A model generated the notes under the pieces. That model was not told the DNA's origin and did not search any database. It was given only the letters and a program-made list of their open reading frames with translations. 64,000 bases of DNA from Bradyrhizobium sp. BTAi1. Its GTDB lineage: Bacteria > Pseudomonadota > Alphaproteobacteria > Rhizobiales > Xanthobacteraceae. Positions 19,978-29,145 of this stretch are shown in pieces. The DNA is taken from assembly GCF_000015165.1 (NCBI RefSeq), contig NC_009485.1, positions 6,343,501 through 6,407,500 of the forward strand, in the 5' to 3' direction. Position numbers and translations under genes: made by a program. Numbering within the stretch: position 1 is the stretch's first letter; each line of letters begins with the position of its first letter.

Positions 19978-21477
19978 TCAGCCCGAACGCACCCAGTCCG
20001 GCAGGCGGTCGAACCAAGGCTGCGCCTGCTCGAGCTGACGAGCGAGCTGCAGCAGCCGGACTTCATCGCCCAGCCGACCCGTGAACTGGACGCCGAGCGG
20101 CAGGCCCTCGGCGGTCCAATGCAGCGGCACGCTCATCGCCGGCGTGCCGGTCAGATTAGCGAGCTGGGTGAACGGCACATATTGCAGGCTGTCGCGGGCG
20201 ATCTTGTCGATCATGCCGTCGAGCCAGCCTAAGCGCGTCAGCAATCCGAGCAGGCCGACGCGATCGAGCATGTCGAGCAATATCTGCTCGGCCGCCGTCG
20301 GATCGCCCTGGCCGTGGCGCACCGGCGGATGCGCCAAAGTCGGCGTCAGCAGCATGTCGTAGCGCGCATGGAAACGCGCCAGCGCGCGGGCGAAGCCGTT
20401 CCATTTCAATAGCTGCGTCGTCAACGCGCCGGCGGAGACCGCCCCGCCGAGCGTCGCCAGCACCCGTGTCAGCAGCTCGAACTCCGCGCGCCCGGCGCCT
20501 TTGGCGCGCGCCTCCGCCACCAGCGCCGCCACCTGGCCGAAATAGATGTGCAGGAACGAGGTCGCGAGCGCGCCGCCATCGATGGCGGGCGTCGCCTCCT
20601 CGACCTCATGGCCGAGGCCCTGCAGCAGTTTGACGGCATTCTCGGTCGCAAGCTTCGCCTCGGCATGAACTGCCATGCCGATCGGTGAGGCCGTCGTGAC
20701 ACCGATGCGCAGGCGCGGCGGATCACGCGTCACGGCGTTCGCGAACACCACGCCAGGCTCGGCCACGAGAAACGGATCGCCAGGCTCGGGCCCGGTGATG
20801 ACGTCGAGCGCCAGCGCCGTGTCGCGCACACTGCGCGAGATCACGCCTTCGCTGGAGGCGCCGTACCAATATTCGCCGAAGCCCGGCCCGGAGGACACCC
20901 GGCCGCGCGACGGCTTCAGTCCAAACAGGCCACAGCAGGCGGCGGGAATGCGAATGGAGCCGCCGCCGTCATTGCCGGCGGCCATCGGCACCACGCCGGA
21001 GGCGACGGCCGCTGCCGCGCCGCCGCTCGAACCGCCGGACACATGCGCCGCATTCCAGGGATTGTTGACGCGGCCGAAGGCGCGCGAGTCGGACACGCCC
21101 TTCAGCGCCAGCTCCGGAAGATTGGTCTTGCCGAAGATCACAAGGCCGGCCTCGATATAGCGCCGCACGACATGCGCATGCTCAGCGGCGACGACACCGG
21201 ACAGCGCCTTGCTGCCACAGGCCGTCGGCAGGCCGGCATAGTCCTGCGCGCAGTCCTTGATCAGAAACGGCACGCCGGCAAAGGGGCCGGCTGCGAGCCT
21301 GGTCAGCTGCGTGCGCGCCTCGCGCTCCATCAGCTTGCAGATCGCGTTGGTCTTCGGCTGCGCCCGCTCGCTCTGCTGCAGGGCGAGCTGCAGCAGCTCG
21401 GCCGCCGTGGTCTCACCTGTCCTGACCGCGTCAGCCAGCGCCGTTGCGTCGCGCTGCACATAATCATGGACGCTCAC
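19978..21477 (-). CDS. Amidase signature family hydrolase
   Basis: 499 residues from a GTG at 21477 with GGGGAGGG just upstream. The Ser-cisSer-Lys triad is complete: K74 in FLIKDCAQ, S150 in the GGSSGG signature and S174 in GGGSIRIP, with the usual 24-residue spacing between the two serines. The family cleaves carbon-nitrogen amide bonds of small amides, including nylon-oligomer and indoleacetamide-type substrates; the substrate here is unknown. It ends 2 bp from the convergent thioesterase stop and diverges from the Roadblock gene across 263 bp. Confidence 0.92.
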   Translation of the reverse strand: MSVHDYVQRDATALADAVRTGETTAAELLQLALQQSERAQPKTNAICKLMEREARTQLTRLAAGPFAGVPFLIKDCAQDYAGLPTACGSKALSGVVAAEHAHVVRRYIEAGLVIFGKTNLPELALKGVSDSRAFGRVNNPWNAAHVSGGSSGGAAAAVASGVVPMAAGNDGGGSIRIPAACCGLFGLKPSRGRVSSGPGFGEYWYGASSEGVISRSVRDTALALDVITGPEPGDPFLVAEPGVVFANAVTRDPPRLRIGVTTASPIGMAVHAEAKLATENAVKLLQGLGHEVEEATPAIDGGALATSFLHIYFGQVAALVAEARAKGAGRAEFELLTRVLATLGGAVSAGALTTQLLKWNGFARALARFHARYDMLLTPTLAHPPVRHGQGDPTAAEQILLDMLDRVGLLGLLTRLGWLDGMIDKIARDSLQYVPFTQLANLTGTPAMSVPLHWTAEGLPLGVQFTGRLGDEVRLLQLARQLEQAQPWFDRLPDWVRSG

Positions 21478-21659
21478 ATTGCCCTCCCCGCATGGCAATC
21501 AGCCGACCGTCATCGTAGCAGATTCCGGCCGGAATGGCGGCGCAGCGGCGAGAAAAAACGGCGACAATACGGCCGAACGACGACCATTGCGGCAGAGTCG
21601 CGCCCGCAATCAGCCTGCGCGACGGCGATATTAAGTAATAGCATCACACGTTAGTTAAT

Positions 21660-21673
21660 TTGATTCAGATCAT
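21660..21673 (+). promoter_or_regulatory. FNR/FixK-type box upstream of the Roadblock-ODP cluster
   Basis: The sequence TTGATTCAGATCAT matches the FNR/FixK consensus TTGAT-N4-ATCAA at nine of ten defined bases. It is 67 bp before the ATG at 21741, so a class II promoter with the box centred near -41.5 would start transcription about 30-35 bases before the gene. The only alternative target is the amidase, 183 bp away in the other direction. FixK2 drives low-oxygen genes in Bradyrhizobium, which fits an oxygen-binding protein in the cluster. Confidence 0.5.
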
Positions 21674-21740: not shown

Positions 21741-22574
21741 ATGGGACGCTTGGCAAGCCTGCTGAAGACATCACAAGCCTCGGACGCGACCTCGCCGATT
21801 GGCCGCGTCACCACAGCCGACTACTTCATCCTGCTGTCGCGCGCGATGGAGAACCTTCCCGATTCAAATGCCGAGCGCCGCGCCGAAGTCTATCAGTCGG
21901 CCCGCCACGCTTTGCTCACTCAGCTCGAGGCGATGAATCCGCCCGTTTCGCGATCACGCATCAAGGCCGAGCAGCGCGCGCTCGACGACGCGGTCGAGAC
22001 GATTGAGACGCGCGCGCTGAGCGCTCCGCTCGACGATCCGGAGCCGCCGGTGACGCTGGCTCCCGGCCACTTCCCTCGTTTCTTTGCCGCAAATTCCGAC
22101 GTTCCCACCGTTTCCGCTTCAACAACTCACGATGACGACCAGGACCCCGCCATGGCTCAGAGTCAATTTCATTCCAAGTTTTCGGCACGCGCCGTCGAGG
22201 AGAAGCCGATGTCACGTCTCGATGAAATCAACCGGGTGCTGCGCAAGCTGCAGAGCGACTCCTTCGGGGTCGAGGCCTGCGCTCTGATCTCGGAGGACGG
22301 GCTGATGATCGCAAGCGTGCTCGCCGCCGACATGGAGGAGACGCGGGTCGCCGGCATGACCGCGACGCTGCTGTCGCTCGGTGGCCGCGCGGCGATGGAG
22401 CTCGGCCGCAGCCATCTGCAGGAGGTCATCATCCGCGGCGAGTCCGGCTACGCGGTGCTGGTCAGCGCCGGCCGCGGCGCGCTGCTGCTCGCGCTGACCA
22501 ACGAGAACAGCAAGCTCGGGCTGACCTTCTTCGACATGCGCGAGGCGGTCCGCTCGCTGCAGAAAGTCCTTTAG
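21741..22574 (+). CDS. Roadblock/LC7 domain protein with helical N-terminal extension
   Basis: 277 residues. Residues 24-95 form a helical domain (DYFILLSRAM, then AEVYQSARHALLTQLEAMNPP) resembling one I recall in many rhizobial membrane proteins. A disordered linker rich in Asp, Thr and Ser follows, and residues 157-277 are a complete Roadblock/LC7 domain (ACALISEDGLMIASVL, TATLLSLGGRAAMELG, VLVSAGRGALLLAL). Roadblock domains dimerise and regulate GTPases or act as scaffold modules in bacterial sensing. An internal ATG at 22209 with GAGGAGAAG upstream could yield the 121-residue Roadblock domain alone. It is the first gene of a four-gene cluster, 60 bp before the ODP gene, and a FixK-like box lies upstream. 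Confidence 0.85.
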   Translation: MGRLASLLKTSQASDATSPIGRVTTADYFILLSRAMENLPDSNAERRAEVYQSARHALLTQLEAMNPPVSRSRIKAEQRALDDAVETIETRALSAPLDDPEPPVTLAPGHFPRFFAANSDVPTVSASTTHDDDQDPAMAQSQFHSKFSARAVEEKPMSRLDEINRVLRKLQSDSFGVEACALISEDGLMIASVLAADMEETRVAGMTATLLSLGGRAAMELGRSHLQEVIIRGESGYAVLVSAGRGALLLALTNENSKLGLTFFDMREAVRSLQKVL

Positions 22575-22634
22575 CGCAATCGTCGTCAAAACAGCCGGCG
22601 CGGGCAATGGCGCGGCGCCGGAGGGAGTAGTTTC

Positions 22635-23396
22635 ATGGCCAATACCGTCCTCTATGATGACGGCGTTCACAAGAACATCCTGCTGGAGGATTTCAACGCC
22701 GGCGACCTCGCCGTGCAGGCGAACCAGCATCTGATCATCCATGACCGCGTCGGCATGCTGCTCGACCCCGGCGGGCACAAGGTCTATTCCAAGGTGCTGG
22801 GCGAGACCTTCAGCGAGCTCTCGGGCGGGCGGCTGAAATATCTGTTCCTGTCGCATCAGGACCCCGACATCGTGGCGGCGATCAATGGCTGGCTGATGAC
22901 CACCGATGCCGATGCCTACATCTCCGAGCTGTGGACCCGCTTCGTGCCGCATTTCGGCTTCGATCACATCGTCGCCCACCGGCTGAAGCCGATCCCCGAC
23001 GAGGGCATGGTGTTCGATCTCGCCGGCAGCAAGCTCTACGCCCTGCCCGCGCATTTCCTGCACAGCGAAGGCAATTTCCAGCTCTACGATCCGATTTCGA
23101 AGATCCTCTACAGCGGCGATCTCGGCGCCTCGATCGGCGTCGACTATACGGTCACCCGCGACTTCAAGGCGCATATCCGCTTCATGGAGGGTTTTCACCG
23201 CCGCTACATGGTGTCGAACCGGGTGATGAAGGCGTGGGCGCAGATGGTGCGGCCGCTCGACATCGAGATCATCGCCCCGCAGCACGGCGCGCTGTTTCCG
23301 GATGCGGGGATGTCGCGCCAGTTCATCGAGTGGTGCGCCGGGCTCGAATGCGGCATCGACCTGATCACGCCGAAGTTCAAGGTGCCCGCGGCCTGA
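22635..23396 (+). CDS. ODP-type diiron metallo-beta-lactamase protein (oxygen-binding)
   Basis: 253 residues, a stand-alone metallo-beta-lactamase domain with a strong GGAGGGAG ribosome site. Aligned by eye to flavodiiron proteins, the ligand set is H74-x-D76-x-D78 (SHQDPD), H143 (LHSEGN), D162 (SGD) and H217 (APQHGAL), so both iron sites look complete. The flavodoxin domain of true flavodiiron enzymes is absent. This matches the ODP group (Thermotoga TM0755, Treponema ODP), which binds oxygen at a diiron site and is linked to chemotaxis in spirochaetes. Here it is probably a cytoplasmic oxygen or nitric-oxide sensor, since its neighbours carry Roadblock domains and no reductase is present. 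Confidence 0.88.
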   Translation: MANTVLYDDGVHKNILLEDFNAGDLAVQANQHLIIHDRVGMLLDPGGHKVYSKVLGETFSELSGGRLKYLFLSHQDPDIVAAINGWLMTTDADAYISELWTRFVPHFGFDHIVAHRLKPIPDEGMVFDLAGSKLYALPAHFLHSEGNFQLYDPISKILYSGDLGASIGVDYTVTRDFKAHIRFMEGFHRRYMVSNRVMKAWAQMVRPLDIEIIAPQHGALFPDAGMSRQFIEWCAGLECGIDLITPKFKVPAA

Positions 23397-23397
23397 C

Positions 23398-24204
23398 ATG
23401 CTGGCTCCGTCTCCCAATTTCGGTTCGTCACCGCTGCCGCACGGCATGCCATCGTCCTCGGCTGCAGCGCGTTTCGAGCCCTGTACCGTCGCCGGCGAGG
23501 AGGCTCCGGTCTGGCTCGCAGCCGCGTTTGCCGTCGCCGGCGTGCTCATCGCCATCATGTCGGCCGCGCTGTGGCAGCAGAGCCTGGCACGCACGCCCGA
23601 GGTCGCCGCCTCAGCCCCGCCGGCGGTGACGCAGGCGCCAATGCCAGCGCCGGCGGAGCGGACGCCCGAGCCGATGCTGAAGCCGCCGGAGACGCCGTCG
23701 CCGGAGCCGTTGCAGACCCCTGTGACGATCGCAGCCCCAGCCGCGGCGCCGGAGCCTGTCATCAGCGTGCCCAGTCCGACACCCGTCGCCGCCCTGCCCG
23801 AACCGGCGACCGCCGCCCGCAAGGCCGCCACCGAATGTTTCGCGCCGCTGTCGATCGCCTTCGAGCGCGGCAGCACGCGGCCCAATCCGGCCGACGTGAA
23901 ACGGTCGCTGCCGATCCTGCAAAGCGCGTTGGCGCGCCATGGCGACGCGGCGGTCCTGGTCGAGGGGCATACCGACGCCAGCGGCAGCGAGGATCTCAAC
24001 GTGCTCCTGAGCTATTCGCGCGCCAAGGCCGTCGCGGAGCTATTGAAGCGCGATGGCATCGCGGCGCATCGCATCACGGTGCGCGCCGCGGGGGCCGGCG
24101 AGGCGCGCGGCACGGCCGAGGCGGTGGCCGGCGACCGCAAGGCGGTCCTGCGGCTCGCCGGCGTCGACGATTGCGATCAACTCACGGCAGCGAAGCGACC
24201 ATGA
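23398..24204 (+). CDS. Membrane-anchored OmpA-family (peptidoglycan-binding) protein
   Basis: 268 residues starting one base after the ODP stop. A single membrane segment (about residues 40-60, WLAAAFAVAGVLIAIMSAAL) has no cleavage site and should anchor the protein in the inner membrane. A Pro/Ala/Glu-rich linker (about 65-135) spans the periplasm, and residues 140-260 are an OmpA C-terminal-like domain: IAFERGST, VEGHTDASGSEDLN, LSYSRAKAVAELL. OmpA domains of this kind bind peptidoglycan, as in MotB and Pal. The stop overlaps the next gene by ATGA. It would link the sensor cluster to the cell wall. Confidence 0.87.
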   Translation: MLAPSPNFGSSPLPHGMPSSSAAARFEPCTVAGEEAPVWLAAAFAVAGVLIAIMSAALWQQSLARTPEVAASAPPAVTQAPMPAPAERTPEPMLKPPETPSPEPLQTPVTIAAPAAAPEPVISVPSPTPVAALPEPATAARKAATECFAPLSIAFERGSTRPNPADVKRSLPILQSALARHGDAAVLVEGHTDASGSEDLNVLLSYSRAKAVAELLKRDGIAAHRITVRAAGAGEARGTAEAVAGDRKAVLRLAGVDDCDQLTAAKRP

Positions 24205-24845
24205 CGATCTATGCCATTCTCAGCGGCCTCGGCGCCGCCATTCTTCTGCTCACCGGCGGTTATCTGTTCGGCGCGCGCCAGGGCGCGCAGGCGCGCGATC
24301 TGCTGCGCCGGCAGGTGCAATTGCAGGCGGCCAGTCTCGACCAGCTGCAGGAGCGGAGCAATCAGGAGGCGGCCGAGCGGGAGACCAGCCTGCGCAGCGC
24401 CATCCAGGACGTGCTGGCGCCGCTGGTCGAGCGCGAGCGCATCTCGCTGGATCTGGCGCAGCTCGCAACCCGCCCCGGCCGCCGTCGCGAGCTGGTGCCG
24501 CTGCTCGACCGGATCGCCGAGGTCGGCCGTTTCCAGACCGTGCTGCTGACCAATGAAGAAGGCCTGCCGCTCGCGGCCAACACCACCGCCCGTCATACCG
24601 AGCGGCTGGCCGCGGCCGCAACACGGCTCTCGCTGGTCGCCGAGAAGGTCAGCGGTGAGCACGCCGTCGCGCCGCTCTCGGTGATGCTGCGCGATGCAAC
24701 GGAGGCCACGACGCTGTGCCGGATCTTCCGCGTCCAGGACCAGACGCTGACCCTGACCGCGCTGTCCAACGATCCGAGGCTCGCCTCCGTGGCGCTCGAT
24801 CCGGCTCTCGCCAAGGTCCAGGTCGCGCTCACTGCGCCGGCGTGA
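24201..24845 (+). CDS. Membrane-anchored coiled-coil protein with Roadblock-like C-terminus
   Basis: 214 residues. An N-terminal membrane segment (about 3-25, IYAILSGLGAAILLLTGGYL) is followed by a Gln/Glu-rich coiled coil (about 35-80) and a globular C-terminus (about 100-212). In that C-terminal part, FQTVLLTNEEGLPLAANT, TERLAAAATRLSLVAEKV and QTLTLTALSNDPRLA follow the beta-alpha-beta order of a Roadblock/LC7 domain. The family call is by eye and tentative. The ATG overlaps the OmpA-like stop (ATGA), so it is translationally coupled. It could dimerise with the Roadblock protein encoded at 21741. Confidence 0.75.
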   Translation: MTIYAILSGLGAAILLLTGGYLFGARQGAQARDLLRRQVQLQAASLDQLQERSNQEAAERETSLRSAIQDVLAPLVERERISLDLAQLATRPGRRRELVPLLDRIAEVGRFQTVLLTNEEGLPLAANTTARHTERLAAAATRLSLVAEKVSGEHAVAPLSVMLRDATEATTLCRIFRVQDQTLTLTALSNDPRLASVALDPALAKVQVALTAPA

Positions 24846-27942: not shown

Positions 27943-28060
27943 CCCGATCGCCACGGTCGACCGGGCATCGGTCCGCAGCATCGGACAACAGCAACCGAAC
28001 CTCACACTTCGCCTTGGTTAGGCCTTGACCATGGCAGCGCGCGTCGTATGAGATGCAGCC

Positions 28061-28477
28061 ATGGTCCGGGGATACGTCCTGTTCATCATTGCGGTTGCGT
28101 TGGGCTCGCCGTCATTTGCGACGGCGCAGACGGTCAGCTTTGGCGAGTCGGCCGGCCTGATCGCATCGAGCTGCGGCGCCGACATCACCGCGAATTGCCG
28201 CGGCGTCAATCTCGATTCAAACCGGCTCAAGGAGTGCCTGTCGCGCAACCAGGACGTGGTGTCAGCGCAATGCAAGGCCACCTATTTCAAGGCATTCGAG
28301 GCGATCCAGAAGCGCATTGCCGCGCGGGTCACCGTGGCCAATGCTTGTCAGCGCGAGATCGTCAAGCTGTGCAGCGGCTCCACCAAGGAGACCAGCAAGT
28401 CGATCCCCTGCCTGATCACCGCCAGCGGCGTCAGTACGCGCTGTCAGCAGGCGATCAGCGACGCGGGGTATCGCTGA
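28061..28477 (+). CDS. Secreted cysteine-rich repeat protein (two units)
   Basis: 138 residues: signal peptide (about 1-23, cleavage after ATA), then two cysteine-rich units. The first is SCGADITANCRGVNLDSNRL with two further Cys in KECLSRNQDVVSAQCKA; the second is ACQREIVKLCSGSTKETS with C in IPCLITASGVSTRC. Each has the four-cysteine GLG1-like pattern seen in the single-unit protein at 17034-17264. The protein is periplasmic and probably disulfide-bonded; its function is unknown. Its stop shares bases with the next gene's start (TGATG), so the two are co-translated. Confidence 0.82.
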   Translation: MVRGYVLFIIAVALGSPSFATAQTVSFGESAGLIASSCGADITANCRGVNLDSNRLKECLSRNQDVVSAQCKATYFKAFEAIQKRIAARVTVANACQREIVKLCSGSTKETSKSIPCLITASGVSTRCQQAISDAGYR

Positions 28478-29145
28478 TGCGCGGAGCGAGATCGTTGATC
28501 GGCGGGTTGCTGGCCGCCGTCGTGATCACGGCGATCGCACCGGCGCGGTCGCAGGAGGTGACGCGCGACGACATCGTGCGCCAGCTCGCCCGCTTCGAGG
28601 CGGCGCCCACGCTCGATCTGCCCGCGCTCAAGCAGCAGACCCAGGAACGATCCAAGCTGCGCGGCCGCAACGAGCCGCCGCCGCAGAAGCGCCCGCCGAT
28701 CGCGCCCGAGCTGATGAACCTGCCGGCCCTCAATGTCGACATCCAGTTCGACCAGGACACGCCGATCGTGCGCCCGGACTCCTATCAGACCGTCGGACGA
28801 ATCGCCGACGCGATGGTGCATTCCGAGCTGCTGCCCTACACTTTCCTGATCGTCGGGCATGTCGAGGCCAATGGCAGGCGTGAGCCCAATGTCATCCTGA
28901 GCCAGCGCCGCGCCGATGCGATCCGCGACATCCTGGCGAATACGTTCAAGATCTCCGTCAAGCGGCTGCAATCGATCGGGCTCGGCGAGGAGCAACTGCT
29001 CGATCCGTCCAAGCCAACGGCCTCGGTCAACCAGCAGATCCAGATCATCACGGTGGCCAAGGTCGCCGAAGAGGCGGCCGCTCCGTCTCCAGCCGCGGCC
29101 CCGGCCGCATCCAGCAAGCAGGCGCCGCGCAAGCATCGCAATTGA
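28477..29145 (+). CDS. OmpA-family periplasmic protein
   Basis: 222 residues from ATG 28477, which overlaps the previous stop. A signal peptide (about 1-25, cleavage after ARS) leads to an Arg/Pro/Gln-rich region and then an OmpA C-terminal-like domain (about 85-195). Recognisable parts are VDIQFDQDTPIVRPDSYQTV, IVGHVEANGRREPNVILSQR and RADAIRDILANTFKI. The usual GHTD motif is changed to GHVE, which may weaken diaminopimelate binding. The Ala/Pro tail ends in a basic patch. Coupling to the cysteine-rich gene suggests a joint envelope role. Confidence 0.83.
   Translation: MRGARSLIGGLLAAVVITAIAPARSQEVTRDDIVRQLARFEAAPTLDLPALKQQTQERSKLRGRNEPPPQKRPPIAPELMNLPALNVDIQFDQDTPIVRPDSYQTVGRIADAMVHSELLPYTFLIVGHVEANGRREPNVILSQRRADAIRDILANTFKISVKRLQSIGLGEEQLLDPSKPTASVNQQIQIITVAKVAEEAAAPSPAAAPAASSKQAPRKHRN

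Follow-up and report, generated by a model that had tools for sequence, protein, structure and literature searches.

The genome of Bradyrhizobium sp. BTAi1 (8.49 Mb) carries four plus-strand genes at positions 21741-24845 of a stretch of 64,000 nucleotides that we analysed as a whole (contig NC_009485.1, positions 6,343,501 to 6,407,500; hereafter the window, in whose numbering its features are given). They encode a Roadblock protein, a diiron protein of the oxygen-binding diiron protein (ODP) family, a membrane protein bearing an OmpA domain, and a coiled-coil protein of the membrane, here called tmR, which is predicted to end in a C-terminal Roadblock fold. The place and order of these genes in the original prediction, which had been made from the letters of the DNA, were borne out, as was their packing: 1 bp separates the stop of gene 2 from the start of gene 3, and genes 3 and 4 share an ATGA overlap. 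As described below, comparison with other genomes shows a conserved Roadblock-ODP core accompanied by an envelope half, consisting of the OmpA-domain protein and the putative membrane-tethered Roadblock protein, and it is well supported by gene order and conservation that the four genes form a real module.

Gene 2 (22635..23396, + strand, 253 aa) was confirmed by profile and alignment as a member of the ODP family of diiron metallo-beta-lactamase proteins. It matched PF19583 at E 2.7e-69 over profile positions 1-194 of 194, and it aligned over nearly its full length, including all six ligands, with PDB entries 6qrq (E 2.7e-65) and 6qnm (E 1.6e-62), both titled oxygen-binding diiron protein. 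The ligands H74, D76, D78, H143 and D162 are kept in 94/94 aligned ODP rows and H217 in 93/94, the exception (L016_b; L numbers denote loci and G numbers genomes) ending before that site. No Pfam match to a flavodoxin domain was found in the 253 residues, in agreement with the flavodoxin-less ODP with six ligands that had been proposed. The flavodiiron reductases, found among the PDB entries matched next, share the diiron metallo-beta-lactamase domain, and the protein might accordingly be an enzyme, an oxygen, peroxide or nitric oxide (NO) reductase that the Roadblock and OmpA proteins merely localise at the envelope. We consider this unlikely, given the missing flavodoxin domain and the Pfam-checked neighbours in relatives, which are kinases, response regulators, protoglobins, GTPases and proteins like methyl-accepting chemotaxis proteins (MCPs), with no electron-transfer partner among them, none having been specifically sought.

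Gene 1 (21741..22574, + strand) encodes, in its long form, a Roadblock protein of 277 aa, whose Robl_LC7 match (E 7.7e-14, 51.6 bits) lies above the Pfam cut-off of 23 and is the sole Roadblock match at E <=0.001 in the host genome. Its assignment as a Roadblock protein stands, but the gene itself was redrawn as a 277-codon frame, with a separate ATG at 22209 for the Roadblock core. In the AlphaFold2 model (mean predicted local distance difference test score, pLDDT, 74.5; below 50 at residues 100-151), the predicted parts are a helical N-terminal domain at about residues 25-94, a low-confidence linker at 100-151 and the Roadblock core at 157-277. The core is a candidate separate product of 121 aa (22209..22574, + strand), with AGGAG at 6-nt spacing before its internal ATG. 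Both the motif and the spacing are kept in G065, the other copy of the cluster in the genus, and 35 of 1019 internal ATGs of control frames showed a match of at least 5 bases. This internal Shine-Dalgarno sequence supports a putative dual product, long and short; in the comparison of internal starts, several apparent N-terminal extensions are probably chance open frames. Relative to G065 the core is 100% identical over 121 residues, with no nonsynonymous substitutions per site (dN 0) and 0.29 synonymous ones (dS), while the N-terminal part gave dN 0.19 and dS 0.61.

The N-terminal domain of gene 1 was matched in the Methylocystis loci L023 (E 1e-10) and L024 (E 5e-10), where it sits on a separate extra Roadblock gene directly upstream. 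Other Roadblock genes adjacent to an ODP carry AAA_22, presumably an ExeA-like ATPase domain (L022, L155), or DUF4388, which we take to be the PATAN domain (L081), and the Roadblock gene of L025 has a weak receiver match at its N-terminus (E 0.0012, below the cut-off). The fusions of AAA_22 to Roadblock directly upstream of the ODP lie at L022:4214-5500 and L155:4468-6066; the upstream frame L036:3111-4346, from a metagenome-assembled genome (MAG), also matches AAA_22, and its Roadblock part contains stops.

Gene 3 (23398..24204, + strand) encodes a membrane protein of 268 aa with a Pro-rich linker and an OmpA domain (PF00691, E 2.6e-10 at residues 168-235), and a single membrane span was placed by eye at about residues 38-60. 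OmpA domains bind peptidoglycan, and an Asp and an Arg have the wall-binding role. Both are retained in the segment GHTDASGSEDLNVLLSYSRA of gene 3, the Arg following the Asp by 15 residues; with domain and motif both present, gene 3 is predicted to be an OmpA-like wall anchor.

Gene 4 (tmR; 24201..24845, + strand, 214 aa) combines a long N-terminal helix that includes the membrane span (hydropathy peak 1.96 over 19 residues), a coiled coil and the C-terminal domain. Because its Robl_LC7 score (E 5.1e-4, 20.2 bits) is under the Pfam cut-off of 23, the Roadblock assignment rests on the structure model. The AlphaFold2 model (mean pLDDT 88.1, predicted template modelling score, pTM, 0.65) has a long helix at 2-86, followed by a helix, two strands, a helix, three strands and a helix. 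The top Foldseek targets were Myxococcus MglB, MP1/p14 and archaeal Roadblock3 (E 5e-5 to 1.3e-4; TM-scores of 0.51-0.69, normalised by target length), in entries titled MglB homodimer, Roadblock3 homodimer and MP1-p14 scaffolding complex, which illustrate that proteins of this family make both homodimers and heterodimers. The Roadblock-like end proposed for this protein is therefore favoured by the model and its fold matches, although not by the Pfam profile, and a Roadblock fold is predicted for the C-terminal domain.

In comparison with G065, dN was below dS in all four frames. The values were dN 0.018 and dS 0.34 (dN/dS about 0.05) for the ODP gene, 0.049 and 0.55 (0.09) for tmR, 0.14 and 0.42 (0.34) for the OmpA domain of gene 3, and 0.57 and 1.20 for its Pro-rich linker.

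Distribution of the four-gene set

The loci compared were the best 79 of 575 confirmed relatives of the window ODP and, because they were chosen as best matches to that protein, they give a biased picture of ODPs at large. Counts were taken from domain searches on all open reading frames (a simple gene caller gave no ODP in L028, L029, L040 and L076), with profiles built from one seed each and partly drawn from these same loci. Among the 79 loci together with L109, L121, L155 and the window, Roadblock, ODP, OmpA and tmR genes were consecutive, with no other matched domain between them, in 13: the window, L109 (G065), L121 (G306), L155 (G847), L018 from Competibacteraceae, L019 from Dechloromonas, L020 from Defluviicoccus, L021, L022 from Methylococcaceae, L023 and L024 from Methylocystis, L025 from a betaproteobacterium and L036 from a gammaproteobacterium. 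L020 and L021 are near-copies, and two MAG loci have damaged frames, the OmpA frame of L019 being split in two and the Roadblock frame of L036 having stops. These loci span alpha-, beta- and gammaproteobacteria, and in a quick tree their ODPs form one clade with 94% support in the Shimodaira-Hasegawa-like approximate likelihood ratio test (SH-aLRT). The distance between the OmpA and tmR genes is at most 4 nt in 14 of the 16 loci read (three by eye; L019 if GTG is the start).

Related arrangements were found in Myxococcota. In L038 the four genes are consecutive and regulators come after them; in L030, L032, L040, L042 and L044 a receiver-DUF4388 regulator stands between ODP and OmpA, as it does in L043, where the locus stops short of tmR; and in L031 the order is permuted. 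In these loci a receiver was matched in 8/8 and a histidine kinase in 7/8. The OmpA-bearing group comprises 21 tree rows, L043 among them. Because the compact loci sit among relatives that have both kinase and regulator, the compact form may have lost them, a direction of loss that depends on a root set by the MCP-type outgroup.

The tmR profile matched 28 frames, which include soluble Roadblock-like proteins. Before the last 110 residues, 18/28 showed a hydropathy peak of at least 1.6, two were borderline (L031, 1.32; L047, 1.50) and eight were clearly lower, as calculated on stop-to-stop frames that include some upstream sequence. All 18 frames with a clear peak lie in loci that also bear OmpA. 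In the samples of genomes from the same class and phylum, searched in part by scoring the best seven candidates per genome, tmR was much rarer than ODP: it was found in 1/385 class genomes (the window's own) versus nine with ODP, and in 2/383 phylum genomes, G847 besides the window's own, versus 49 with ODP. Every tmR found in these samples adjoins an ODP and none was seen away from one, a result that comes from one independent genome, G847. Mean pairwise identity was 0.69 for the Roadblock protein and 0.69 for ODP (20 loci), and 0.33 for OmpA and 0.39 for tmR (19 loci for tmR).

Genomic context in the genus

Conservation in relatives had been set beforehand as a test of the original prediction. 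The prediction withstands this test, the set being kept in 12 other loci and in Myxococcota, as described above, but it is no genus trait: among 98 genus genomes searched, including the window's own, the cluster was found in 1 of the 97 others (G065, at 96%), a third match being weak (25%) and not counted. In the order sample, seven of 297 genomes matched: the window's own; G306, which is close at 66% and carries all four genes in identical order; and five others at 22-25%.

The cluster is flanked by a divergent amidase gene (19978..21498, - strand; PF01425, E 3.7e-96), together with which it lies between a thioesterase gene and a DUF1328 gene. We do not claim the amidase as part of the system; it adjoins the cluster in G065 too, inside the same apparently inserted block, and had no match in the corresponding regions (about 11 kb each) of 11 cluster-less relatives, which were taken from 38 other genomes matched via a UvrD-like helicase. 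Because the thioesterase and DUF1328 genes touch in 10/11 of these cluster-less genus members (in L116 they are about 5 kb apart), the amidase and cluster look inserted, and loss in nearly all relatives would be the less simple alternative. The cluster has probably moved horizontally. Plasmid carriage was considered and rejected, since the ODP relatives in nine plasmid records were all below 60% identity, with no near copy among these plasmids to explain transfer.

This rarity in the genus, and the location of the block between genes that touch in almost all cluster-less relatives, would also be expected of passenger genes, that is, an inserted block without coordinated function. On the other hand, the same set occurs in alpha-, beta- and gammaproteobacteria and in Myxococcota, dN is well below dS and the genes are tightly packed. 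These comparisons disfavour the passenger reading, which we regard as very improbable.

The region upstream of gene 1 holds an FNR/FixK-like palindrome, TTGATTCAGATCAT (21660..21673, + strand), with one mismatch to TTGATNNNNATCAA. It begins 81 nt 5' of the first ATG and is identical in G065, likewise at -81. The whole window contains two matches versus 0.83 expected, and at least two occurred in 18 of 100 shuffles; because this count is not beyond chance, the box rests on its position and conservation. Downstream of the UvrD-like helicase, the window encodes a second OmpA-domain protein (27943-29142; PF00691, E 1.1e-15), in which Glu replaces the Asp of the wall-binding motif, and which is also near the helicase in G065.

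Roadblock-ODP neighbourhoods in other bacteria

In bacteria, Roadblock proteins are mostly known for partnering GTPases of the MglA type, and ODP is known as an oxygen sensor of spirochaete chemotaxis. Among the 79 best loci, a Roadblock-fold domain lies at most 300 nt from ODP on the same strand in 41, covering six labelled phyla (Pseudomonadota 18, Myxococcota 10, Thermodesulfobacteriota 5, Acidobacteriota 2, Bacillota 1, from a MAG, and Chloroflexota 1; 4 are unlabelled). Within 5 kb on the same strand, the matched domains were Roadblock (46 loci), receiver (27), kinase (23), DUF4388 (18), OmpA (17), ParA (9), small GTPase (7) and protoglobin (4). No Roadblock match was found in any of 12 Aquificota loci or in the Pseudomonas-type loci L083, L089, L090, L092, L093 and L095.

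A different partner was found in the class of the host, where nine genomes had an ODP match. In each of the seven at 37-43% identity the profile search found an MCP-like gene upstream, with Pfam MCPsignal over the cut-off in L011 and weak in L010 and L014. In the tree, ODPs with an MCP neighbour branch separately (8 rows, 100% SH-aLRT), and G847 holds both kinds, the four-gene cluster (L155) and a separate MCP-like/ODP pair (L156). In L010-L016, of the same class, the short MCP-like proteins upstream of ODP have no obvious sensor domain and are reminiscent of Treponema TDE2496.

Several relatives have neighbourhoods worth recording. The fullest are L055 and L081 (Chloroflexota), with a receiver, a histidine kinase, a small GTPase, a DUF4388-Roadblock fusion, ODP and a receiver in one run; L081 has an extra small Roadblock gene before the fusion, and L055 a protoglobin. 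Protoglobin, a haem gas-binding globin, is encoded beside Roadblock/ODP on the same strand in L032 (1195-1755), L050, L055 and L068 and on the opposite strand in L052, giving a haem and a diiron gas sensor per locus. At L050:8766-11484, from Mariprofundus erugo, three almost identical Roadblock genes alternate with two protoglobin genes after ODP, which may be a local amplification or an assembly artefact.

We propose, tentatively, that Roadblock and ODP form the core of a widespread, undescribed class of bacterial gas/redox signalling systems. Its Roadblock scaffolds would have a diiron oxygen sensor as their fixed partner in place of a GTPase, and the outputs would be exchangeable: a kinase with a DUF4388 regulator, a GTPase, ParA, an AAA+ protein or a membrane Roadblock complex anchored to the wall. 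The window would then hold its most compact, envelope-tethered form, with a heterodimer of a soluble and a membrane Roadblock protein. We hold this proposal to be somewhat less likely than not.

The neighbourhoods also bear on what is sensed. That oxygen is the signal, as originally proposed alongside NO, is supported only indirectly, by the ODP family and the titles of 6qrq and 6qnm, by the few protoglobin neighbours and weakly by the FNR/FixK-like box in two copies; Fe(II) and NO are also possible ligands. The Treponema ODP is said to sense Fe(II), and the module might report Fe(II) status, with oxygen acting only through oxidation of the diiron site. All six metal ligands are conserved, and several Roadblock genes surround ODP in Mariprofundus and other Zetaproteobacteria, which are iron oxidisers; nevertheless, protoglobin recurs beside the Roadblock/ODP pair, on the same strand in four loci, and we find the Fe(II) reading improbable.

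The GTPase and ParA neighbours raise a further alternative, namely an MglA/MglB-type polarity or positioning module in which a small GTPase or ParA, under the control of the Roadblock proteins, positions envelope machinery, and ODP is accessory. MglB is the closest fold to gene 4, GTPase and ParA occur in 7 and 9 of the 79 best loci, and PATAN genes near MglA are described in PMC4316618. However, GTPase or ParA was matched in none of the 13 compact loci, no MglA-type protein was seen in the host in searches that do not amount to a strong negative, and ODP is conserved equally to the Roadblock protein, which makes a polarity module unlikely here.

Proposed mechanism and comparison with known systems

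Our preferred reading, to which we give a probability of slightly under one half, is that the cluster is a signalling module tethered to the envelope, probably acquired by horizontal transfer and responding to oxygen (possibly to Fe(II) or NO). The original prediction is in this sense partly supported. What we infer is that the products touch one another, which ligand ODP binds (oxygen, Fe(II) or NO) and what the output is.

Observations weigh on both sides of this reading. In its favour, besides the recurrence, packing and conservation set out above, genetic distances to ODP correlate for Roadblock (Mantel r 0.64, 44 loci), tmR (0.89, 24 loci, maybe inflated by the two kinds of protein in the tmR profile) and OmpA (0.51, 18 loci), with 0 of 2000 permutations as high; yet this is as expected of co-travelling genes, so that contact is not shown, and co-inheritance with correlated distances is no proof of it. 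Against the reading, no output gene was matched, since kinase, receiver, GTPase, ParA and MCP profiles had no match in the 18 kb around the cluster. In 38 of the 79 best loci there is no Roadblock domain at most 300 nt from ODP, and 34 of 96 tree rows have no Roadblock, OmpA or MCP match at most 4.5 kb away, seven of these loci having less than 1.2 kb of flank on one side. Control by FNR/FixK as a general feature was rejected, the box being upstream of 1 of 48 Roadblock-family genes elsewhere versus 15 of 529 control genes; it is common to the window and G065 copies only, and because other loci show no enrichment we keep it merely as a local observation. A cognate small GTPase was not seen in the host, where PF00025 had two matches, in frames of 538 and 921 residues only, and a Mariprofundus GTPase query had no match in three genomes, in a search without a positive control. 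A hidden MglA-type GTPase in the host was rejected on these two results, which do not make a strong negative.

In the envelope-tethered signalling module as we picture it, the diiron site of ODP would bind its ligand in the cytosol while ODP sits on the soluble Roadblock protein, the product of gene 1. At the inner membrane this soluble protein and the Roadblock domain of gene 4 would form a pair like that of MP1 and p14, and gene 4 and the OmpA protein would span the membrane side by side, holding the complex to the cell wall. Ligand-bound ODP would then alter the Roadblock pair and switch the output. In relatives this output would probably be the neighbouring histidine kinase and DUF4388 response regulator, or the small GTPase; in the compact version it may have been shed or be located elsewhere. 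As adaptor, the N-terminal domain of the soluble Roadblock protein would be the likeliest candidate; it varies between loci, being helical here and AAA_22, DUF4388 or, once, a weak receiver match elsewhere.

A Roadblock-ODP core with exchangeable outputs, if true, would join the Roadblock/GTPase and ODP fields and give Roadblock scaffolds a concrete oxygen/redox input. It would also offer a small four-protein system for studying how a gas-binding protein of the cytosol might signal to the cell wall by way of a Roadblock pair at the membrane. We found no description of the combination in the open-access literature, where no paper turned up that joins Roadblock with flavodiiron proteins, protoglobin or DUF4388, with MglB and oxygen sensing, or with metallo-beta-lactamase or OmpA proteins, no search having paired Roadblock with ODP by that name; open-access papers on oxygen-binding diiron proteins made no mention of Roadblock. 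This is a weak negative in that subscription papers mostly fall outside this literature and the spelling Roadblock/LC7 may be missed.

Four known systems share parts with the cluster. Flavodiiron proteins have the same diiron metallo-beta-lactamase domain, and differ from the window ODP in their flavodoxin domain. The MP1/p14 pair of Ragulator brings Roadblock domains to a membrane, and Foldseek matches gene 4 to MP1/p14 entries with E values from 8.5e-5 upwards; that system is eukaryotic and has no diiron protein, and the heterodimer proposed here is putative. MglA/MglB and the actinobacterial conservons, as described in PMC4316618, combine Roadblock, a small GTPase and a histidine kinase. 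The likeness lies in the Roadblock signalling partners, and some relatives of the module carry a histidine kinase and a small GTPase; here, by contrast, there are an ODP partner, two Roadblock proteins of which one is predicted to be membrane-tethered, and an OmpA protein, with no GTPase match in the four-gene loci. Finally, the Treponema denticola ODP acts with the MCP homologue TDE2496 in oxygen chemotaxis, according to PMC7666581. In both cases an ODP-family diiron protein is genetically coupled to a signalling partner, which is of MCP type there and consists of Roadblock, OmpA and membrane Roadblock proteins here, the MCP partner of the Treponema type having no profile match in the 18 kb around the cluster. 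In its way of working the cluster would, by analogy, come closest to a cross between the ODP-MCP oxygen sensor and the conservons with Roadblock, kinase and GTPase.

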